From Bryobacterales bacterium (GTDB lineage Bacteria > Acidobacteriota > Terriglobia > Bryobacterales > Bryobacteraceae), in the NCBI GenBank assembly GCA_003166865.1, contig PMUP01000049.1:1-50815 (forward strand): a DNA stretch of 50,815 nucleotides, given 5' to 3'. Position numbers and translations under genes: made by a program. Of this stretch, positions 5,271 through 16,828 are shown piece after piece (the first letter of the stretch is position 1; each line of letters opens with the position of its first letter). The notes beneath the pieces were generated by a model that was not told where the DNA came from, did not search any database, and worked only from the letters and a program-made list of their open reading frames with translations.

Positions 5271-6907
5271 CTATTGCCCTTTGCGCAGCTGATCCAGCAG
5301 TTGCTGCACGCGTGGATCGGGATCGAGCTTCTGCGCTGCTTCCAATTCGGCAATCGCGCTGGGCAGTTGGCCTTCTACATGCGCGAGCGCCCTCCCTAGA
5401 TTGGCATGAGCTTGCACCAGCCTAGGTTGCAACCGCACTGCGGCCTTCCACTCCTGAATAGCGTCGGGCATCCGTCCCGGCGTTCGGGCAAAAGCGTTCC
5501 CCAGATTCTTGTGCAGCTGGGCGAATCGCGGTTGACTGTGCAAGGCTGCTTGATATTCGGCGATTGCGTCGGGCAGCCGTCCCGGTATCTTCTCCAAAGC
5601 GGTTCCCAGATTCAGGTGTGCACGGGCGTCACCGGGAACCACATTGACCGCGCTCGACCACAGGCTCAGTTCATCGTGCCAATCGAAGTTGCGGGCGTAT
5701 GTTCGGATGGCGAGTGCCAGGCACGCGACCACCCATCGCGATCCAGCCAACCCCGGGGGCTTGCGGGCCAACTGGAAGAAAATCGGCGCCCTAGCTCGTA
5801 GATCGCGGCAACCACGCATCCAACCAAGCCGATCGAGGGCAGATAGAGGAAGCGCTCGGCCATTATCGGCACCTCCAGCGCGGTAGGCGAGAGAGCAACG
5901 AAAAAGAAAAAGACGAAGAAGAACATCGCCTTCGATCTGCGCCGCCAACGGACCGCAAGCGCAATGGCGCATAGGCAGACGGCCAGCACGATCAGCACCT
6001 TGCCATCTTCCCAGGTCGAAAGCTTCCATCTGAAACCGGGAATCGCGTTGAAGGAATAATCGGCTGACAAGTGGTCCGGCCAGACAAAAAGCCGTATGGC
6101 TTTGCCGATGATCTTGAGGATGCTGACGAGCGCAGTCCAGAACCCGGAGGCAGCAGCCAGATTCTCGCTGACGACCGACATTATCGACGTGTGCAGCTGG
6201 ATACGCAGATAGGCGAAGGCGGCAAAAGGCAACAACAAGGCAGCGTAGGCAGGGGCGCGGGCGCGCCAACTCGCGCGCTCGGACCACGTAAGATCGTAGA
6301 CCAGCAGGATGCCCGGCAAATCGGCGGCGTTCTCTTTGGACAGCAGTCCGATGGCTTGCGCGGCCACCATTGCCGCCAGCAGCTCGGCGCGGCCCACGAT
6401 GTTGGTGACCGATTCGGTGAGCAGCGGATGCAATCCCCAGATCGCAGCGAACGCCAAGGCCAGCGCCGGCGCGTCAAAAATCAAAATGCCCAGTGCGTAC
6501 ACCAGAGACACATTCACACCGTGCAGCACGAAATTAAACCAGTGATAACCTGCCGGGTTCGCGCCATTGTCGAACACCGCATAGTTCACTAGGTACGACA
6601 AAGTGGTGACCGGCCGATAAAGTCCCTATGTGGGAGCGATGTGCCAATACCCTTCGGTCAGAATAGCCCCGATGTTCCGCGCTGTTACTGGCCGGATGCG
6701 GGGATCTTCGAGGAGCGCCGGAGTGTTATCGAAGAAAATGCCGGCTTGAAAGGAATTGGAATACGCCGCCAGAGCCAATGCCCAAAGCAGCAGCAGGCGG
6801 CGCCCGTGTCGACTCCAGACCAGGCTAACAATCTTGCGCACGAAGTGCTGCCTGGCCGCGGGTGGTGGTGTCTCGCGGGATCTGCGAGGCTTTTGAATCT
6901 TCCTCAC
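5271..6907 (-). pseudogene. Broken copy of the membrane/TPR glycosyltransferase-like gene
   Basis: A degenerate duplicate of the intact gene at 7004-9142. It starts with the same RKIQKPRRSRETPPP and ends in a near-identical QLLDQLRKGQ. Four lesions are visible. A TCG codon has become TAG at 6628-6626. An 81-bp segment is missing near 6380, corresponding to 8526-8606, which in the intact copy lies between 9-bp GCCGCCAGC repeats, so it fits slippage. A net two-base insertion around 5715-5760 shifts the frame. Only three C-terminal TPR units remain instead of seven. The rest is still highly similar at DNA level. No single protein of the original kind can be made from it. Confidence 0.88.
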
Positions 6908-6940
6908 TTCACGAGCAGCATAACGCGCTGATTGATCCCC

Positions 6941-7001
6941 ACCATCATGCGCGTCCTACGTTAACCTGTCGAAAAAGCGCCTGCCGATCTTCTGGCGGGC
7001 T
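6941..7001 (+). other. Possible decayed copy of the his attenuator
   Basis: The gap between the two duplicate genes contains ACCATCATGCGCGTC at 6941-6955 and CGCCTGCCGATCTTCTGGCGGGCT at 6978-7001. These resemble the His-codon run (ACCATCATCGGCACGTC) and the terminator (CGCCCGCCGACAACTTGGCGGGCT) of the real attenuator at 9182-9290, in the same order. The leader ATG and the T-run are gone. This suggests that the duplicated unit included the his leader, whose left copy then decayed. The resemblance is by eye only. Confidence 0.5.
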
Positions 7002-7003
7002 GC

Positions 7004-9142
7004 CTATTTCCGCCCTTTGCGCAGCCGGTCCAGCATCTGCTGCACTTGTGGATCGGGATGGATCCTCTGCGCCGCTTCCAATTCGGCAATCGCGCTGGGC
7101 AGTTGGTCTATCTGCGCCAGCGCGCTCCCCAGATTGGCATGCGCTTGCGCCAGATTGGGTTGTAACTGAAGCGCGGCCCGCCACTCCCGAATGGCATCCG
7201 TCAGCCGGCCCGGCGTCTGGGCTAGAGCGTTCGCCAGGTTGTTGTGCGCCTCGGCGAATCGGGGCTGACTGTGCAGCGCTGCTTGATATTCGGCGATTGC
7301 GTCGGGCAGGCGGCCGGGCATTTGCGCGAACGCGTTTCCGAGGTTGTAGTGCGCTTCGCCGAGATCGGGGTCGCTGCTCACCGCTGCCTGCCACTCGCCC
7401 ATCGCGTCCGTCAAGCGCCCAGGCATCCGCTCGAACGCGTTGCCTAAGTTGTTATGCGCCTCCGCGAAATCGGGCTGAATTCGCAAGGCCGCCTGAAACT
7501 CCCCGATCGCGTCGGGCAGTTGTCCCGGCATTCGCGCCAGCAGGCAGCCGAGGTTATAGTGCATAGCGGCGGCCCCGTCTCCTTTCATGCGCAGCGCCGC
7601 CTGGAACTCGGTGACCGCATCCTGGGCGCGGTCGGGCATTTGCGCCAGCGCGCGTCCCAGGTTGTAATGCTCTTGCGCGCCATTCGGCGAGATCCGCAAT
7701 GCTGTTTGAAGCTCGGCAATCGCGTCGGGCAATCGTCCTGGTATCTGCGCCAAAGCGTTTCCCAGATTCATGTGTGCGCGGGCATTCCAGGGAACCACAT
7801 TGACCGCGCTCGACCACAGGCTCAGCTCATCGTGCCAATCGGAGTTGCGGGCGTATGTTCGCATGCCGAGTGCCAGGCACACGACACCCATCGCGATCCA
7901 GGCAACCTGCGGGCTTGCGGGCCAGCTTGGCGAAAGCCGGCGCCCAAGCGCGTAGATCGCGGCAACTACGCATCCAACCAAGCCGATCGAGGGCAGATAG
8001 AGGAAGCGCTCGGCCATTATCGGCACCTCCAGCGCGGTAGGCGAGAGAGCAACGAAAAAGAAAAAGACGAAGAAGAACATCGCCTTCGATCTGCGCCGCC
8101 AACGGACCGCAAGCGCAATGGCGCATAGGCAGACGGCCAGTACGACCAGCACTTGGCCATCTTCCCAGGTCGAGAACCTCCAGCCGAACTTGGGAATCGA
8201 ACTGCGCGAATAGTCGGCTGACAAGTGGTCCGGCCAAATAAAAAGCCGGATGGATTTGCCGATGATCCTGAGGCTGTTGGCCCGCGGTGCCCAGAACCCG
8301 GAGCGACTTGCAAGACCCTTGCTGAGGGCCACCGCTAAGCGCGTGTGCAGTTGGCTCCGCAGATAGAGGAACGCGGCAAAAGGCAACGCCAAGGCAGCGT
8401 AGGCAGGGGCGCGGGCGCGCCAACTCGCGCGCTCGGACCACGTAAGATCGTAGACCAGCAGGATGCCCGGCAAAACGGCGGCGTTCTCTTTGGACAGCAG
8501 TCCGATGGCTTGCGCGGCCACCATTGCCGCCAGCCACCAGTGCTTGCGCCGTCCTGTGGCGGAAGCCCACTGTACATAGCACAACAAGCCCGCCAGGACT
8601 CCGAACGCCGCCAGCAGGTCGGCGCGGCCCACGATATTGGTGACCGATTCGGTGAGCAGCGGATGCAATCCCCAGATCGCAGCGAACGCCAAGGCCAGCG
8701 CCGGCGCGTCAAAAATCAAAATGCCCAGTGCGTACACCAGTGACACATTCACACCGTGCAGCACGAAATTAAACCAGTGATAACCTGCCGGGTTCGCGCC
8801 ATTGTCGAACACCGCATAGTTCACTAGGTACGACAAAGTGGTGACCGGCCGATAAAGTCCCGATGTCGGAGTGATGTGCCAATACCCTTCGGTCAGAATA
8901 GCCCCGATGTTCCGCGCTGTTACTGCCCGGATGCGGGGGTCTTCGAGGAGCGCCGGAGTGTTATCGAAGAAAATGCCGGCTTGAAAGGAATTGGAATACG
9001 CGGCCAGAGCCAATGCCCAAAGCAGCAGCAGGCGGCGCCCGTGTTGACTCCAGACCAGGCTAACAATCTTGCGCACGAAGTGCTGCCTGGCTGCGGGCGG
9101 TGGTGTCTCGCGGGATCTTCGAGGCTTTTGAATCTTCTTCAC
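7004..9142 (-). CDS. TMTC-like membrane protein with seven TPR units
   Basis: A 712-residue protein starting at GTG 9142. A basic cytoplasmic N-terminus (KKIQKPRRSRE) is followed by about ten hydrophobic segments up to about residue 400, then seven tandem TPR units of about 36 residues (AHxNLGxALxxxPGRLxDAIxEF). The membrane part has FFDNTPALLEDPRI, PDHLSADYS and AERFLYLPSIG, which resemble the conserved loops of TMTC-type (DUF1736) O-mannosyltransferase-like GT-C proteins. It probably transfers a sugar from a lipid carrier on the outer face of the inner membrane, with the TPR part binding partner proteins; that is inference. A TATACT box (9157-9152) lies nine bases from the start codon, so the mRNA may have almost no leader. 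It diverges from the his operon. Confidence 0.8.
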   Translation of the reverse strand: MKKIQKPRRSRETPPPAARQHFVRKIVSLVWSQHGRRLLLLWALALAAYSNSFQAGIFFDNTPALLEDPRIRAVTARNIGAILTEGYWHITPTSGLYRPVTTLSYLVNYAVFDNGANPAGYHWFNFVLHGVNVSLVYALGILIFDAPALALAFAAIWGLHPLLTESVTNIVGRADLLAAFGVLAGLLCYVQWASATGRRKHWWLAAMVAAQAIGLLSKENAAVLPGILLVYDLTWSERASWRARAPAYAALALPFAAFLYLRSQLHTRLAVALSKGLASRSGFWAPRANSLRIIGKSIRLFIWPDHLSADYSRSSIPKFGWRFSTWEDGQVLVVLAVCLCAIALAVRWRRRSKAMFFFVFFFFVALSPTALEVPIMAERFLYLPSIGLVGCVVAAIYALGRRLSPSWPASPQVAWIAMGVVCLALGMRTYARNSDWHDELSLWSSAVNVVPWNARAHMNLGNALAQIPGRLPDAIAELQTALRISPNGAQEHYNLGRALAQMPDRAQDAVTEFQAALRMKGDGAAAMHYNLGCLLARMPGQLPDAIGEFQAALRIQPDFAEAHNNLGNAFERMPGRLTDAMGEWQAAVSSDPDLGEAHYNLGNAFAQMPGRLPDAIAEYQAALHSQPRFAEAHNNLANALAQTPGRLTDAIREWRAALQLQPNLAQAHANLGSALAQIDQLPSAIAELEAAQRIHPDPQVQQMLDRLRKGRK

Positions 9143-9150
9143 TTCACGAG

Positions 9151-9174
9151 CAGTATACCGAACCTGCTATACTG
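9151..9174. promoter_or_regulatory. Divergent -10 boxes forming an inverted repeat
   Basis: CAGTATA (9151-9157), ten bases, then TATACTG (9168-9174): a perfect 7-bp inverted repeat. Read on the plus strand, TATACT with an upstream TG (9165-9173) is an extended -10 for the his leader. Read on the minus strand, TATACT (9157-9152) serves the membrane/TPR gene. No good -35 was found for either, which extended -10 promoters can tolerate. The two promoters overlap, so the genes may compete for polymerase, or a dimeric regulator may bind the repeat. Confidence 0.65.
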
Positions 9175-9181
9175 TTTCTGC

Positions 9182-9238
9182 ATGCACTCCGCCCGTCACC
9201 ACCATCATCGGCACGTCTGGCGATCGGCGGCATTCTAA
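9182..9238 (+). CDS. hisL: His operon leader peptide
   Basis: An 18-codon frame, ATG 9182 to TAA 9236-9238, encoding MHSARHHHHRHVWRSAAF. Six of 18 residues are histidine, four of them consecutive (codons 6-9). It ends 65 bases before hisI, with a terminator hairpin between them. There is no Shine-Dalgarno sequence, but the -10 TATACT ends only eight bases before the ATG, so the transcript probably begins at or within two bases of the start codon and the peptide would be translated from a leaderless mRNA. Ribosome stalling at the His codons when charged tRNA-His is scarce is the expected sensor of attenuation, as in known his leaders. Confidence 0.88.
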   Translation: MHSARHHHHRHVWRSAAF

Positions 9239-9261
9239 CGAATTTCTGAAGTGAACCCGCC

Positions 9262-9289
9262 GCCCGCCGACAACTTGGCGGGCTTTTTT
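9262..9289 (+). terminator. Intrinsic terminator of the his leader
   Basis: A perfect 7-bp GC-only stem (9262-9268 with 9277-9283), an 8-base loop and six T at 9284-9289, ending 14 bases before the hisI ATG. The T-run is on the plus strand only, so it terminates plus-strand transcripts. No other plus-strand gene ends nearby (the last one stops at 5250), so it must act on the his leader transcript. Confidence 0.9.
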
Positions 9290-9303
9290 ATTGGTATGGA
9301 CAC

Positions 9304-9711
9304 ATGAATCTCGATTTCAGCAAACTCGATTTCACTAAACTCAACGGTCTGGTCACGGCCGTCATTCAAGATCACGCCACGGGCCGGGTCCTGATGGTCG
9401 GCTTTATGAACGAAGAGGCTTTCCACAAGACCGTCGAAACCGGTTACGCGACCTTCTTCAGCCGTTCGCGCAACAAGCTTTGGCTAAAAGGCGAATCGTC
9501 CGGCCACAAGCTGGTGGTGAAAAACATCTCGACCGATTGCGATCTGGACGCCCTGCTCATCCAGGTGGAGGCGCTAGGTCCCGGCGTGTGCCACGAAGGA
9601 TACCAGAGCTGCTTCTTTCGCAAACTCGAGGGCGGCGAATGGACGGAATCGGAGCCGCGGGCCTACGATCCGGCAGCGGTTTATCCGGGCAAACCAGGGA
9701 GCAAATCGTGA
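9304..9711 (+). CDS. hisI: Phosphoribosyl-AMP cyclohydrolase
   Basis: 135 residues, the size of a stand-alone HisI with no fused HisE domain. It opens the purine ring of PR-AMP, step 3 of histidine synthesis, in the cytoplasm. Visible family features are [33 protein letters not shown], the metal-binding DCDLDALL, and [15 protein letters not shown] with the two zinc-ligand cysteines. It is the first enzyme gene after the attenuator and its TGA overlaps the GTG start of hisG. The enzyme for the preceding step, HisE, is not in the window. Confidence 0.96.
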
Positions 9712-10577
9712 AACTCAAGCTCGGCATTCCCAAGGGCAGCCTGGAAAACGCGACCATCGATTTGTTCCGCCGCGCCGGCTTCAACATCACCACCAGCTCG
9801 CGATCCTATTTTCCCGCCATCGACGACCCGGAGATCGAATGTATGATGATCCGCGCTCAAGAAATGGCCCGCTACGTCGAAGATGGCGTGCTGGACGCCG
9901 GACTCACCGGCCGCGACTGGATTGAAGAAAGTGAAGCGAAGGTTCATGCGGTGGCCGACTTGATCTACGCCAAGCAGAGTTTCGGCAAAGTGCGCTGGGT
10001 GCTGGCCGTGCCGGAAACCTCCCCATTCCAAAGTGTGAAAGATCTCGAGGGCAAGATTATCGCGACGGAGCTGGTAGCCACCACGCGGCGCTATCTCGAG
10101 AAGAATGGCGTGACGGCCAAGGTGGAATTCAGTTGGGGCGCCACGGAAGTGAAACCACCTGTGTTGGCCGATGCCATCGTGGAGGTGACCGAGACCGGTT
10201 CCTCGCTGCGCGCCAACAAGCTGCGCATTGTCGAGACGGTGCTTGAATCCAACACGCAGCTCATCGCAAATATCGATTCCTGGAAAGATGCCGAGAAGCG
10301 CCGCAAACTCGAGGACATTCGCTTGCTGCTGGACGGCGCCATCAATGCGCTGGGCCGTGTGGGCTTGATGCTCAACGTGCGCAAAGAGTGCTTGCCCGCG
10401 ATTCTGGGCATTCTTCCGGCGCTGAAGAAACCGACCATCTCCAATCTCAGCGACGATGAGTGGGTGGCGGTTCACACGATTCTCGAAGAGATCACCGTGC
10501 GCAATATCATTCCGCGGCTGAAGGAAGCCGGGGGGCAGGGAATCGTCGAGTATCCATTGAACAAGATCGTGATGTAA
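9708..10577 (+). CDS. hisG: ATP phosphoribosyltransferase, long form
   Basis: 289 residues from GTG 9708, which overlaps the hisI stop (GTGA) and has GGGAG about six bases upstream. It makes phosphoribosyl-ATP from ATP and PRPP, the first and feedback-controlled step. Family features are [16 protein letters not shown] at the N-terminus, [13 protein letters not shown] and [20 protein letters not shown]. The C-terminal part of about 75 residues ([18 protein letters not shown] to the end) is the regulatory domain of the long, HisZ-independent form, so histidine inhibition is expected. Longer open frames upstream read through hisI and are not real. Confidence 0.96.
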
Positions 10578-10579
10578 GC

Positions 10580-11827
10580 ATGCTTCGAATCTTTCCATTG
10601 GCCGAAGCTCAGAGCTTCATCACGCGCAAAACGATCCGGCTAGCCGCGGCCGAACAAGTGGTCGCGCCGATTTTGGAAGCTGTGCGCAATCGCGGCGATG
10701 AGGCCGTTCTCGAATACGCGCGCAAGTTCGACAGGCTGGAGGGCGACAGCTTGACGGTGTCCACGGCGAAGTCGCGCGTGTCGCCCGAGTTTCGATCCGC
10801 GCTCGAGACCGCGACCAAGAACATCCGCGAATATGCGGAGCTGCAGCTTCCCCGCGAAACTTGGGTCGAATTCCCGGATGGCCGCCGTTTGGGATACATC
10901 GTCCGCCCGCTCGAATCGATGGGCGCGTATATTCCGGCGGGACGTTATCCGCTGCCGTCCACGCTGTTGATGACGGTGATTCCCGCGCAGGTCGCCGGAG
11001 TGGGGACCATTTGCGTTACGTCGCCGCATCCCAGCGCCGAGATTCTCGCGGCAGCGCAGTTTCTCGGGGTCGACAACATCTTCCGGATTGGCGGCGCGCA
11101 GGCCATCGCCGCGCTCGCCTTCGGCACCGCGACCATTCCCAAAGTAGATCGTATCGTTGGTCCGGGCAACATTTACGTCGCCGCCGCGAAGAAGTTGCTC
11201 GCCGGCGAAGTGGGAATCGATTTTGTCGCCGGACCCACGGAGATAGTCATCATCGCCGATGACGCCGATCCGCGCTACATCGCGGCCGACATGCTCGCGC
11301 AGGCCGAGCACGATGTGGAAGCCTCCGCGATTCTCCTGACCACTTCGCGAACCTTAGCCGAACGCGTGGCTCTCGAAGTATCGCGACAACTTGGATTACT
11401 GCCAACTGCCGCGGTGGCTTGCGAGGCGATTCGCGACAACAGCGCCGTGATCTTGTGCCCGTCCCTGGACGCCGCCGTGGAAGCATCCAATCGGCTGGCG
11501 CCCGAGCACATGTCGATTTATGACGAGAGCCTGCTGCCGAAGATTCGGCACGCAGGTAGCGTTTTCATTGGTCCGAACAGTCCCGAAGCGGCGGGCGATT
11601 ACGCCACCGGTCCCAATCATGTGCTTCCCACTTCCGGCGCGGCGCGAATTCGGGGCGGTCTTTCTTCCGCCGATTTCGTGAAGCTGATTTCGGTGCAAGA
11701 GCTGACCTCGAGCGGTCTGCGGCAACTCGCGCCGGCAATTACGACCCTGGCTCGCGCCGAGGGCTTAGAAGGGCATGCCCGATCCGTAGAGGTACGTCTA
11801 GGTGCTGAGGTGCGTCTTGGCAAATAG
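10580..11827 (+). CDS. hisD: Histidinol dehydrogenase
   Basis: 415 residues from ATG 10580, two bases after the hisG stop. A zinc enzyme that oxidises L-histidinol to L-histidine in two NAD-dependent steps. It shows AYIPAGRYPLPSTLLMT, the signature IVGPGNIYVAAAKKLL, DFVAGPTEIVIIADD, AEHDVEASA with the zinc-ligand His, and LAPEHMSIYDE with the catalytic Glu-His pair. The last residues contain a short duplication (EVRLGAEVRLGK) from a 17-base direct repeat at about 11789-11820. It overlaps the start of hisC. Confidence 0.96.
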   Translation: MLRIFPLAEAQSFITRKTIRLAAAEQVVAPILEAVRNRGDEAVLEYARKFDRLEGDSLTVSTAKSRVSPEFRSALETATKNIREYAELQLPRETWVEFPDGRRLGYIVRPLESMGAYIPAGRYPLPSTLLMTVIPAQVAGVGTICVTSPHPSAEILAAAQFLGVDNIFRIGGAQAIAALAFGTATIPKVDRIVGPGNIYVAAAKKLLAGEVGIDFVAGPTEIVIIADDADPRYIAADMLAQAEHDVEASAILLTTSRTLAERVALEVSRQLGLLPTAAVACEAIRDNSAVILCPSLDAAVEASNRLAPEHMSIYDESLLPKIRHAGSVFIGPNSPEAAGDYATGPNHVLPTSGAARIRGGLSSADFVKLISVQELTSSGLRQLAPAITTLARAEGLEGHARSVEVRLGAEVRLGK

Positions 11828-12896
11828 GAAACTCGACCTGCCTCCCGGTGTGCTGCAGCCGCGCGAGGCGGTGCTCAGAATGGCGCCGTATTCGCCGCCC
11901 ACCGGCGGCCGTGCCGGCAAGCTGCGCTTGGATTTCAACGAAAACACCGTCGGCGCGTCCCCGAACGTGATCGAATATCTTCGCGAGCATTTGAGCGCGG
12001 ATGGACTCGCCGTTTATCCCGAGTACGGCGAGATCAAGCAGGAACTGGCTGGCTTTTTCGCTGTCGAGCCGGACGATTTCATCCTCACCAACGGAACGGA
12101 CGAGGCGATCCAGGTGCTCGTCAACACTTATATTGATGACGGCGGCGAGGTGCTTCTGTTGCGGCCATCTTACGCCATGTACCGTTTCTACGCCGAAGTC
12201 GCTGGCGCGAGTATCCGCGAAATTCCGTACCGGGCGCAAAAGCTGGCCTTTCCGCTCGAAGAATTGTTGGATGCGATCCGGCCGTCCACGCGCGCGATCC
12301 TGATTGCGAATCCGAACAATCCCACCGGCACTGGAACATCGCGCGCGGGCATCGAGCGGATTCTCGAAAAAGCCACCAACGCCGCCGTTTTGATCGATGA
12401 AGCATATTACGAATTCTCGGGCATCAGCGCGCTGCCTTTGCTCAACGATTATCCGAATCTGTTTGTGAGCCGTACCTTTTCGAAAGTCTACGGAATGGCG
12501 GCCATGCGGCTGGGCTGCCTGTTCTCGCAGTCAGGCAATGTCGAGTTTCTTCACAAGGCGCAATCGCCGTACAGCGTGAACACAGTCGCGACGCTGGCGG
12601 CTCACGCTGCCATTCAAGACAGGGCGTATATCGAAAAGTACGTTACCGAAGTTCTGGCCGCGCGAGAGCTGCTCTATGTTGGCCTCGAAAAGCTCGGCAT
12701 CCCGTACTACGAAAGCAACGCAAACTTCGTGCTGTTCGAAGCCGGCAAGCGCGCCATCCCTGTGCGCGACGAGCTGCGCCGCCGCGGTGTGCTGGTCCGC
12801 GATCGGAGCTACGAGATCGCCGGCTGTGTCCGCGTCACGGTCGGCACGCGCGATCAGATCCGGCGGTTCCTCGGAGAATTGGAGCAACTCTGGTGA
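11802..12896 (+). CDS. hisC: Histidinol-phosphate aminotransferase
   Basis: Up to 364 residues. It converts imidazole-acetol phosphate and glutamate to histidinol phosphate, using PLP. Features are RLDFNENTVGASP near the N-terminus, NGTDEAIQVLV, ILIANPNNPTGT, VLIDEAYYEF and the PLP-lysine motif SRTFSKVYGMAAMRLG. Start is uncertain: GTG 11802 (AGAGG nine bases upstream) or TTG 11817 (GAGG six bases upstream), both overlapping hisD. ATG 11880 would remove residues that look family-like. The small HAD gene follows after 13 bases. Confidence 0.93.
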   Translation: MLRCVLANRKLDLPPGVLQPREAVLRMAPYSPPTGGRAGKLRLDFNENTVGASPNVIEYLREHLSADGLAVYPEYGEIKQELAGFFAVEPDDFILTNGTDEAIQVLVNTYIDDGGEVLLLRPSYAMYRFYAEVAGASIREIPYRAQKLAFPLEELLDAIRPSTRAILIANPNNPTGTGTSRAGIERILEKATNAAVLIDEAYYEFSGISALPLLNDYPNLFVSRTFSKVYGMAAMRLGCLFSQSGNVEFLHKAQSPYSVNTVATLAAHAAIQDRAYIEKYVTEVLAARELLYVGLEKLGIPYYESNANFVLFEAGKRAIPVRDELRRRGVLVRDRSYEIAGCVRVTVGTRDQIRRFLGELEQLW

Positions 12897-12909
12897 TCGA
12901 GGCCTGTCT

Positions 12910-13569
12910 ATGAGTAGCGCGTCGCAAATGCTGGTGTTCGATATGGACGGCGTCCTGGTGGAGGTCAGCGAATCGTATCGTGAAACGCTCGTGCTCACCG
13001 TGAAACATTTCACAGGCGAAACGATTACGCGCGATTCAATTCAAGAGTACAAAAACCAGGGCGGCTGGAATAATGACTGGTCGTTGTCGCAAAGGATTTG
13101 CCGCGACTTCGGTGTCGAGATTCCGTACGCTACCATCGTGGAGTACTTCAATTACTTGTTTCTCGATCAAGGGATGATCCATCGCGAACGCTGGATACCG
13201 CGCGATGGGCTGCTGGATCGCTTGGCCGAGAAATTCGAATTTGCCATCTTCACCGGCCGCACCACCGAAGAAGCTGAGATCACGCTGAAACGCGAGGGCT
13301 TGCGCGACCGCTTCCTGCTGGTTACGGCCAACGATGTTGAGCACGAGAAGCCTGCGCCCGACGGCCTGCTGAAGATCGCCGCGCTGCATCCGTCAAAGAA
13401 GCTGCTTTATATCGGCGACACCGTCGACGACGCGCGCTGCGCCAAGGCCGCATACGTCCCCTTCATTGGCGTCGCCGCACGCCGCAGCCCGCGCCGCGAT
13501 GAACTGGTCGAGCTGCTGCAATCGGAAGGCGCTATCCAAGTGGTCGAGGACATTAATGAGATTGGCTAG
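12910..13569 (+). CDS. HAD phosphatase, candidate histidinol-phosphate phosphatase
   Basis: 219 residues, inside the his operon between hisC and hisB. All HAD motifs are present: FDMDGVL (nucleophile and acid Asp) near residue 9, TGRT (motif II), EKPAP (motif III Lys) and GDTVDD (motif IV). The N-terminal cap region with [17 protein letters not shown] and GGWNNDW resembles the subfamily IA 'hyp1' group, which I recall being associated with his genes in other bacteria. The operon has every late-step enzyme except histidinol-phosphatase, so this gene is the natural candidate; the role is inferred. It overlaps hisB by 14 bases, which suggests translational coupling. Confidence 0.85.
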
Positions 13570-14143
13570 CGTCCAGAGACATACCAAGGAGACGCAGATC
13601 AAGGGCTCTCTTAAGATCGAGGGCCGCGGTCGCTATGAAATCTCCACAGGCATTCGTTTCTTCGATCACATGCTGGAGCTTTTTGCCAAGCACGGTGGTT
13701 TCGATCTGAAAGTGAAGGCGACGGGCGATCTGGAAGTCGACCAGCATCACACGGTGGAGGACGTCGGCATCGTGCTTGGCCAACTGGTTTCCAAGGCCCT
13801 CGGCGACCGCAAGGGCATCAATCGCGCGGGCTATTTCGTGATGCCGATGGACGAGACGCTGGCGGTGGTCGCGCTCGATCTCGGCGGCCGTCCGGCGCTG
13901 GTCTACGACGACAAGGTGAAGGTTCGCCTGGTGGGTGATCTGCAGAGCGAGTTGGTGGAAGACTTCTTCGGCGGCTTTGTCAATCACGCAGGCGCGAATC
14001 TGCACGCCAAAGTTCTGTACGGCCGTTCGAATCATCACAAGATCGAAGCCATCTTCAAATGCTTCGCGCGCGCGCTGCGTTACGCGTGTTCCAAGGACGT
14101 CCGCCTGAAGGAGCAATTGCCATCCACCAAAGGGTTGCTATGA
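13556..14143 (+). CDS. hisB: Imidazoleglycerol-phosphate dehydratase
   Basis: 195 residues, the single-function form without a fused phosphatase. It dehydrates imidazoleglycerol phosphate, in a manganese-dependent reaction. It shows [35 protein letters not shown] and [27 protein letters not shown]-type metal-binding His clusters. The start ATG 13556 lies within the end of the HAD gene. The stop overlaps the hisH start (ATGA at 14140). Confidence 0.95.
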
Positions 14144-14745
14144 TCACGATTCTCGATTATGGTGCGGGTAATCTGCGCTCGGTGCAAAACACGCTCTCTG
14201 AGATCGGTGCCGAGTACGAACTGGTGCGTGACGCGGCCGAGTTGAGCCGGGCGAGCAAGATCGTCTTGCCGGGTGTCGGCCATTTCGGCCAAATGATGCG
14301 AGCTCTTGATGAAATGCAGGTTCGCTCGGCCCTGCTGGAACGCATTCGCGTGGGCGTTCCGTTCCTCGGTATTTGTCTGGGATTGCAAGCGTTGTTCGAA
14401 TCGAGCGAAGAAGCGCCCCGGGAACGCGGCCTCGGGATGTTTCAAGGTGAGATCCGCCGCTTCCCGGCCAGCGCACGGGTGCCGCACATGGGCTGGAACG
14501 AGATTGAGCCGGGCGCTGACGCACGCAAGAGCTCGAAGCTTTTGGCGAACCTCGCGCCGCATCCGTACCTCTACTTCGCGCACAGCTATTACGCGCCGGT
14601 GACCGATGCCACGGCCGCGACTTGCCAATACAACGTCCCGTACACGGCGGTACTTGAAACAAAGAACATCTTCGGCGTGCAGTTTCATCCGGAGAAATCC
14701 GGGCCGATTGGCTTGAAGATTGTCCAGAACTTCGTGGAGCTCTAG
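14140..14745 (+). CDS. hisH: Imidazole glycerol phosphate synthase, glutaminase subunit
   Basis: 201 residues. A class I amidotransferase that supplies ammonia from glutamine to HisF. The triad is visible as Cys79 in FLGICLGLQ, and His183 and Glu185 in QFHPEKSG. The N-terminus is the usual [14 protein letters not shown] with [11 protein letters not shown] (oxyanion strand). It overlaps hisB by four bases and lies two bases before hisF, so HisH and HisF should be made in equal amounts. Confidence 0.96.
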
Positions 14746-14747
14746 CA

Positions 14748-15527
14748 GTGCTCGCGAAGAGAATCATCCCCTGTCTGGATGTCACCGGCGGCCGCGTGGT
14801 CAAGGGTGTGAACTTTGTCGGACTGCGCGACGCTGGCGACCCGGTGGAACTCGCCGCGCGCTACAACGGGCAGGGCGCCGACGAACTGGTGTTTCTCGAC
14901 ATCACCGCTTCGAGCGACGCCCGCGACATCCTGGCCGACGTTGTCGCACGCACCGCGCGGAAGGTGTTTATCCCGCTCACGGTCGGCGGCGGCATTCGAT
15001 CCGTCGCCGATGCACGCAAGATCCTGATGTCGGGCGCCGACAAGGTCAGCGTGAACACCGCTGCGGTCCGGCGTCCCAAGCTGATCACCGAGCTGAGCGA
15101 GGAGTTCGGAGCGCAAGCCGTGGTGCTCGCAATCGACGCCCGCCGGAATGCCGCGCAGCGCAATACAGGTGGCAACTGGAATGTTTTTACCCGCGGTGGG
15201 CGCGACGACGAAGGGATGGACGCGGTGGCATGGGCGCTGGAAGGTGAACTGCTGGGCGCGGGCGAAATCCTGCTCACCTCCATGGATACCGATGGTGTGC
15301 GGACCGGCTTCGATTGCGAGCTCACGCACGCCGTCTCGCAAACCACTCACATTCCAGTGATCGCTTCCGGCGGAGCGGGGAAGCCCGAGGATTTCGAGCG
15401 CGTCCTCACCGAAGGCTGCGCCGACGCCGCACTCGCGGCTTCCATCTTTCATTACGGCAGTTATACGGTGAAGGACTTGAAGGACTACTTGCACGCGCAC
15501 AACGTGCCTGTGAGGCCCATGCCGTGA
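14748..15527 (+). CDS. hisF: Imidazole glycerol phosphate synthase, cyclase subunit
   Basis: 259 residues from GTG 14748. A TIM barrel that forms imidazoleglycerol phosphate and AICAR from PRFAR with ammonia from HisH. Visible are [18 protein letters not shown] with catalytic Asp11, [21 protein letters not shown] (phosphate site), AIDARRN with the second catalytic Asp, [18 protein letters not shown] and [12 protein letters not shown]. It overlaps hisA by four bases (GTGA). Confidence 0.96.
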
Positions 15528-16207
15528 TTATTCCCTGCATCGATCTCATGGATGGCAAGGTAGTGCAACTGATCCAAGGCCGCGAGAAGGCGCTCGAAGG
15601 CGGCTCGCCGCTCGAGATGCTGGAGAAATTCCGCGCGTTCCCGCAGATTCAAGTGATCGATCTCGATGCGGCCATGGACAAAGGTTCCAATGACGCTTTG
15701 GTCGAGTTGGTGGCTTCGCGCGCGGTAGCACGTGTGGGCGGCGGCGTTCGATCGGCGGAGCGAGCGCGAGCGCTGATCCAACAAGGGGCCTTCCGTGTGA
15801 TTGTGGGAACGGCCGCCTTCGATCGGGAGAAGCTTGCGGAGATCGCGGATGCCGTGGGGCCGGACCGGCTGGTGATCGCGCTCGATTCCAGGGCCGGCAA
15901 AGTGGTCACCCACGGCTGGACGGAGGCGACGAACATCACCGCGGAGGAAGTGATTCGCCATCTCGAACCCTACTGCTCCGGTTTCCTCTGCACCTATGTG
16001 GATAAGGAAGGCATGCTCGAAGGCACCGATCTGGGCTGGTTCCGGCGTCTCCGCGCGGCCACCCGGCACGAACTCACGGCCGCCGGCGGGATAGCCACCA
16101 TCGACGAAATTCAGGAGCTGCACAAGCTCGGCATCCACGCGGCGCTGGGCATGGCGATCTATACGGGCCGGTTGAATCTGGAAGCGCTAGCGCGACTCAA
16201 CGCGTAA
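15524..16207 (+). CDS. hisA: ProFAR isomerase
   Basis: 227 residues from GTG 15524. A TIM-barrel paralogue of HisF that isomerises ProFAR to PRFAR. It shows [18 protein letters not shown] with catalytic Asp7, [24 protein letters not shown] with the second Asp, and [11 protein letters not shown]. It is the last gene of the operon and its 3' end overlaps the convergent HAD gene by 21 bases. No terminator hairpin was seen there. Confidence 0.95.
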
Positions 16208-16828
16208 TTCCCCCGGATGCTCCGCCCAATAGTCGGGCTCCCAGCGCGCCATTTCTTCGCGGCGCCCGTAGCCCCACAACACCGCGCAGGTCTTGACGCC
16301 CGCTCGGCGGCCGGCCTCCATGTCGGTTGGAGAATCGCCCACGAACAGGCAATCCTCCGGCTTCACGCCAAAAATCTTGAGCGACGCCAGGATCACGTCA
16401 GGCTCCGGTTTGGCGGGGAATCCGTCGGTTCCCTGGACGTGGTCGAAGTAGGGAAGCAGCCCAAACATTTCGAGCACCGCGCGTGTGGTGGGCGTTCCTT
16501 TGGTGGTCGCGGTGGATTTCCGGCCGGGCAGCGCCGCCAATGCTTCCGAGATGCCGGGAAAGGCGCGGGTGGAGGAGTGGCTTCGCGCGAGATACCGCGT
16601 GCGATAATCCGCGATCATCTCATCCATCTGTGCGCGCGGCCGCTCTGGAAAGAGATCCTGGAACAGATCGTAGAGATGGCGTCCGATGTACCGCCGCAGG
16701 AACTCGTCGGTAACGTTGCACTGTGGAGTGCTTGCGAGAACGCCTTGGATGGCGCCGCAAATGTCGACCGCGGAGTCCACGAGTGTCCCGTCTACGTCGA
16801 ACAGGTAGACGGGAAATTGAGGAATCAC
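16187..16828 (-). CDS. HAD phosphatase, phosphoglycolate phosphatase-like
   Basis: 213 residues. It shows YLFDVDGTLVDSAVD (motif I), a helical cap, TTKGTPTT (motif II region), PAKPEPD (motif III Lys) and FVGDSPTDMEAGRRAG (motif IV), the pattern of Gph/PGP-type enzymes that hydrolyse small phosphate esters. It lies just downstream of ftsH on the same strand (18 bases) and converges on hisA. Substrate is unknown. Despite its position it is on the other strand from the his operon and is not needed to explain the pathway. Confidence 0.85.
   Translation of the reverse strand: MIPQFPVYLFDVDGTLVDSAVDICGAIQGVLASTPQCNVTDEFLRRYIGRHLYDLFQDLFPERPRAQMDEMIADYRTRYLARSHSSTRAFPGISEALAALPGRKSTATTKGTPTTRAVLEMFGLLPYFDHVQGTDGFPAKPEPDVILASLKIFGVKPEDCLFVGDSPTDMEAGRRAGVKTCAVLWGYGRREEMARWEPDYWAEHPGELRVESR

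Follow-up and report, generated by a model that had tools for sequence, protein, structure and literature searches.

The his cluster in this contig of a soil bacterium of the Bryobacterales is very probably controlled by a classical ribosome-mediated attenuator that senses charged tRNA-His, and the RNA from which its leader peptide is made is probably leaderless. This reading is carried by the anatomy of the element, its conservation and co-variation among related loci and its calculated energetics, and from it the transcription start, the leaderless translation and a response to histidine are predicted. The window, that is, the whole stretch of 50,815 nucleotides analysed, contains the following features of the locus.

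The leader region and the his cluster

9165 to 9173, forward strand: extended -10 promoter element TGCTATACT, recognized by its sequence, ending 8 nt 5' of the leader ATG
9182 to 9238, forward strand: leader peptide ORF MHSARHHHHRHVWRSAAF, ATG at 9182, stop codon TAA at 9236-9238, His at codons 2, 6-9 and 11
9188 to 9202, forward strand: region 1, partner of region 2 in the 1:2 hairpin (duplex of -16.7 kcal/mol in the window)
9218 to 9231, forward strand: region 2, the 5' arm of the antiterminator according to the pairing tests, including 9224-9230
9256 to 9270, forward strand: region 3, a tandem CCCGCCG CCCGCCG followed by A; 3' arm of the antiterminator and, from 9262, 5' arm of the terminator
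9262 to 9283, forward strand: terminator hairpin (3:4) with 7 G-C pairs, 9 pairs in total and a loop of 4
9284 to 9289, forward strand: T-run of the terminator (T6), read from the sequence
9304 to 9711, forward strand: hisI (PRA-CH, PF01502), by Pfam match, the first gene controlled
9708 to 16207, forward strand: hisG, hisD, an aminotransferase (hisC), a HAD hydrolase, hisB, hisH, hisF and hisA, by Pfam matches

The first-pass annotation had described a leader peptide with six His residues, a terminator stem of 9262-9268 (GCCCGCC) with 9277-9283 (GGCGGGC) followed by the T6 run before hisI, and a complementarity of TCGGCGG (9224-9230) to CCGCCGA (9264-9270), and all of these agree exactly with the sequence. 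The extended -10 element, the 1:2 hairpin and the tandem CCCGCCG CCCGCCG (9256-9269) are additional features; owing to the tandem repeat there is a second sequence with which the antiterminator arm can pair.

The his cluster consists of nine ORFs beginning with hisI (ATG at 9304), of which hisC, hisH, hisF and hisA were named from family and gene context. The spacing of the ORFs suggests that they form one transcript. No obvious Shine-Dalgarno site for hisI was found between the terminator and the start codon (9290-9304). Upstream of the leader an ORF for a TPR protein (7004-9142) lies on the opposite strand, and the his terminator therefore does not serve it. The TPR-protein gene is tandemly duplicated (5271-6925 versus 7004-9160), with three main blocks being 81-97% identical, and the copy at 5271-6907 is broken across several frames.

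According to the proposed mechanism, RNA polymerase would begin transcription on the leader ATG itself or no more than about 3 nt away from it, and a ribosome would initiate on the 5'-terminal AUG. With ample His-tRNA the ribosome would reach the stop codon and cover region 2, so that region 3 would pair with region 4 and transcription would end before hisI. If His-tRNA is short, the ribosome would stall on the His codons and leave region 2 free to capture region 3 once it is made, and transcription would proceed into hisI. If the leader is not translated, the 1:2 hairpin could sequester region 2, favouring termination.

Conservation of the leader and its alternative structures

The best 80 loci from a HisI search of public genomes were fetched, most of them labelled Bryobacterales, Bryobacteraceae, Terriglobia or Acidobacteria. 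At least four His codons (CAY) within 8 codons were present upstream of hisI in 77 of these 80 best loci as well as in the window, although the loci share ancestry and such counts do not come from independent loci. The three loci below this threshold were L054, L056 (two His codons) and L071 (three His codons). L054, on a contig labelled Chthoniobacterales, has no leader and was excluded from the promoter counts onward; L019 and L044 were left out from the pairing tests onward, and L056 from the masking and 1:2 tests. The His run is common to the loci, while leader length, flanks, C-terminus and other residues vary. The leader stop and the beginning of the HisI match were 59-123 nt apart (80 rows, i.e. 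79 loci and the window). Leaders from genomes of the same genus were, by eye, identical to ones fetched before.

A terminator built around a CCCG...CGGG core, the following 8 bases including four or more T, was found in 77 of 79 loci examined and in the window. L019 and L044 have no T-run terminator, just weak other hairpins; upstream of their hisI the His-rich leader and the -10 box are kept, and they have perhaps switched to translational control. In one leader group, which takes in many loci of the family (e.g. L010, L026), a GGAAAGGA tract, absent from the window, lies immediately 5' of the terminator stem. The terminator stretch of the window (9239-9290) folded with z = -3.0 relative to shuffled sequences. 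A scan of 9000-16500 for terminator-like sites gave no excess (7 sites versus 7.0 expected), and 9262-9283 had the longest stem among these 7. In the alignment A1, comprising 60 rows, the terminator stem was 97% paired and nearly invariant; its covariation was no higher than in shuffles (327 of 500 reached it), as the stem is too invariant to co-vary.

The two other pairings were compared over all rows by exchanging arms between loci. For the 2:3 pairing the rows' own arms gave -17.0 kcal/mol and swapped arms -15.8 kcal/mol (0 of 20,000 permutations), own arms being better than the swap mean in 56 of 78 rows. For the 1:2 pairing the values were -19.0 and -16.5 kcal/mol (0 of 20,000 permutations), with own arms better in 57 of 77 rows. 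The 60 rows of A1 were picked by hand from the 78, atypical or shifted arms being omitted, so the selection leans towards structure; the 18 omitted rows are L007, L039, L051, L055, L056, L059, L060, L062, L063, L064, L065, L067, L070, L071, L072, L073, L074 and L079. In this alignment 75% of the cells of the 2:3 helix were paired, versus 34-46% when the helix was slid, and 47 cells were changed on both sides, versus a shuffled mean of 25.6 (0 of 500 shuffles). Two of the five measures for the 2:3 helix, pairs changed on both sides and further pair types, were not above shuffles (reached by 470 and 396 of 500). The antiterminator flank outside the terminator stem has been altered on both sides, as a check for compensatory changes called for: columns 61:123 contained UA in 23 rows, GC in 11, CG in 3, GU in 2 and UG in 1, and were unpaired in 20. 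A central A-C mismatch of the antiterminator was present in 40 of the 60 rows. As related rows can inflate shuffle results, more weight was given to the swap tests, which covered all rows, and to the geometry. Altogether the His run, the terminator with its T-rich tail and the antiterminator pairing recur in the fetched hisI loci, as the first-pass annotation would lead one to expect, and the 1:2 pairing recurs as well.

In the window itself the stability of the antiterminator stretch (9210-9270, z = -0.8) and of the leader stretch (9180-9260, z = +1.0) did not go beyond that of shuffled sequences. Since these single-locus controls were unremarkable, the case rests on the comparison between loci. 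The equilibrium fold of 9210-9290 includes the terminator and not a clean antiterminator, because region 2 can pair with the first CCCGCCG copy; the switch in the window would thus rely on co-transcriptional order. By eye, no other leader from the window's genus showed the doubling of CCCGCCG.

The effect of ribosome position was calculated by masking 15 nt, counted from the start of the A-site codon, and the antiterminator was counted as available when its duplex reached -10 kcal/mol or lower. A ribosome placed on the first codon of the His run left the antiterminator available in all 77 rows. When placed at the leader stop, it abolished the antiterminator in 76 rows and left it in one (L060), an outcome that is partly due to the overlap of region 2 with the stop codon. 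Region 3 was paired at 6 or more of 8 positions before the 3' arm of the terminator existed in 74 of 77 rows when the ribosome occupied the second His codon, compared with 7 of 77 when it occupied the stop. The median gain from adding the terminator 3' arm was -6.5 kcal/mol in the stalled state versus -15.2 kcal/mol at the stop; in the window the values were -2.8 and -16.7 kcal/mol. These calculations agree with the earlier proposal that the arm is covered at the leader stop and free when ribosomes stall at the His codons. The proposal that antiterminator and terminator exclude each other was borne out by the geometry in the masking calculation, but the 7-bp pairing on which it was based is just part of the antiterminator, whose longer arm in the window (9218-9231) pairs with 9258-9270. 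The original observation is thus confirmed, and its interpretation as an attenuator is supported.

Promoter position and competing explanations

Leader starts were assigned as the nearest ATG upstream of the His cluster, or else GTG or TTG; those of L014 and L056 were set by hand, the latter with the promoter in view. In 71 of 80 rows the best -10 hexamer ended 7-9 nt upstream of the leader start; its sequence was TATACT in 52 of all 80 rows, and TGnTAnnnT was found 7-9 nt upstream in 67. A motif resembling a Shine-Dalgarno sequence preceded the leader in 6 of 80 rows, according to one simple test. In a wider sample of the phylum, described below, TAnnnT occurred 7-10 nt upstream of 24 of 29 leaders, versus 125 of 11,600 random positions (1.1%), and many of these leaders had TTGACA further upstream. 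A -10 box 7-10 nt before the ATG implies that the leader is probably leaderless; in the window transcription appears to start at about 9180-9182, as judged from the promoter sequence, which would give a leader RNA almost without a 5' UTR. In the survey PMC3160421, all three of the Acidobacteria genomes were predicted to have leaderless genes. As a general promoter tag the pattern TGNTATACTN{6,10}ATG was rejected, being rare in the genome (4 sites versus 2 for the reversed control).

The same attenuator could instead have a longer 5' UTR and ordinary initiation, the spacing of TATACT being incidental. A promoter consensus scan that does not list the leader promoter is in keeping with this, as are the five leaders of the phylum sample without TAnnnT at 7-10 nt (L119, L140, both of L141, and L170). 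The narrow -10 spacing among the hisI loci, its recurrence far above random positions in the wider sample, often together with TTGACA, and the scarcity of motifs of the Shine-Dalgarno type in that one simple test make it unlikely.

The terminator is strong and near-invariant, as it would also be if it were constitutive and the short ORF were translated for transcription damping or translational coupling, with no response to histidine. This we regard as very unlikely, since the placement of the His codons lets stalling free region 2, and since the mutually exclusive helices retain a difference between own and swapped arms. Short His-rich peptides can bind metals, and a function of this kind might be the reason for which the peptide is conserved. 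Such a role of the peptide by itself is hardly credible, as the peptides have the His run in common but differ in length, flanks and C-terminus, and the motif of region 2 is kept even beyond the ORF. In the loci with shorter leader ORFs (L039, L059, L060, L063, L072 and L079) region 2 is located at the stop or immediately beyond it, which indicates that the RNA arm is conserved and not the end of the peptide.

Distribution and relation to known attenuators

A covariance model (R1) built from 60 rows, including the window, gave matches with E <= 0.01 in 112 of the family's 121 genomes; according to the match list, 99 genomes of the family had a full-length match below 1e-6. The 30 best family matches were all located upstream of a HisI match, 17 being identical upstream to fetched loci and 13 new. 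In the window's own genome the locus was the single strong site (E = 3.9e-15, as expected with the window in the model), and the next match (E = 0.005) was an ordinary terminator. As candidates for further copies, 12 weaker matches (two in the own genome and ten in relatives) were rejected, being by eye ordinary terminators without a His leader. One of these 12, the second match in genome G358, reached E = 4.8e-7 across the whole length of the model, which shows that a match to R1 alone is no proof of the element. A match at 6934-7009 in the window (E = 4.3) was rejected as a duplicated leader remnant, because the upstream duplication does not extend beyond about 9160 and so does not reach the promoter.

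Of 247 genomes of the phylum Acidobacteriota, 150 contained PF01502, and wider regions around HisI were fetched from 60 of these 150, representing 47 families. They contained 40 short ORFs with a His cluster. Of these, 29 in 28 regions have a hisI or hisG match downstream and were therefore counted as his leaders; left uncounted were L134, likewise situated before hisG, and a cluster in L152 that lies 508 nt upstream of hisI. Counted leaders before hisI or hisG thus occurred in 15 of the 47 families sampled; 32 of the 60 regions had none, although the start of the his operon may lie outside those regions. The scan gave a strong terminator for 24 of the 29 leaders and none in L132, L140, L142, L146 and L151. 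On the minus strand of L141 two His-rich leader-terminator units (1194-1274 and 1383-1514, reverse-complement coordinates) are arranged in tandem before hisG, neither with a close -10 box, and form a possible double attenuator.

We consider it likely that the Acidobacteriota have an old, vertically kept leaderless His attenuator. A single start codon at the 5' terminus of the RNA would here link the promoter with leaderless initiation and with a three-way RNA switch. The sequence of the core arm (CGGGC / GCCCG / CGGGC) would be locked because its segments have to take part in two or more helices and, in the majority of loci, are coding as well.

The his leader of E. coli and Salmonella (RF00514, His_leader) likewise has a run of His codons and alternative terminator and antiterminator hairpins before his biosynthesis genes, as described in PMC3896937 and PMC9413887. 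Unlike that leader, the element described here precedes hisI as first gene, is likely leaderless, and in 74 of 80 rows has no motif resembling a Shine-Dalgarno sequence before the leader by the simple test used. An Rfam scan of the window gave no match at the gathering score, and with 9100-9400 at E up to 5 there were sub-threshold matches only, RF00514 not being among them. Firmicutes His-leader attenuators (PMC9413887; Bacillus hisZ and hisS*, PMC2965389) also combine a short ORF containing a His run with alternative hairpins. They belong to another phylum, and PMC9413887 reports three Firmicutes lineages, whereas here the 77 of 80 best HisI loci and the 15 of 47 families carry the leader. 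For Actinobacteria, a search for His-containing leader peptides is cited in PMC4833913.

Leader peptides at the RNA 5' end that control a downstream operon are described for Sinorhizobium meliloti trpL (PMC7298713), Streptomyces lividans leuL and ilvL (PMC8079986), Corynebacterium glutamicum ilvBNC (PMC11857589) and mycobacterial polycysteine ORFs (Canestrari 2020, cited in PMC9031893). As described there, those cases concern other amino acids and other phyla. According to the 2010 survey PMC2965389, hardly any of the predicted attenuators in phyla such as Acidobacteria had been given a function.

Both leader-peptide attenuators and leaderless attenuators are known already, and the evidence supports the His attenuator of the Acidobacteriota as a new, well-conserved case that is probably leaderless. 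The literature consulted on his attenuation and leader peptides in Acidobacteria yielded no description of this element; an earlier prediction may be contained in Lopatovskaya 2010, cited in PMC4833913 and reportedly a comparative study of attenuation. A function is now assigned, with strong comparative evidence, to one attenuator of the Acidobacteriota, and the classical control of histidine synthesis by a leader peptide is extended to another phylum. The probable leaderless start would make the element a natural test of how leaderless initiation is coupled to transcription.
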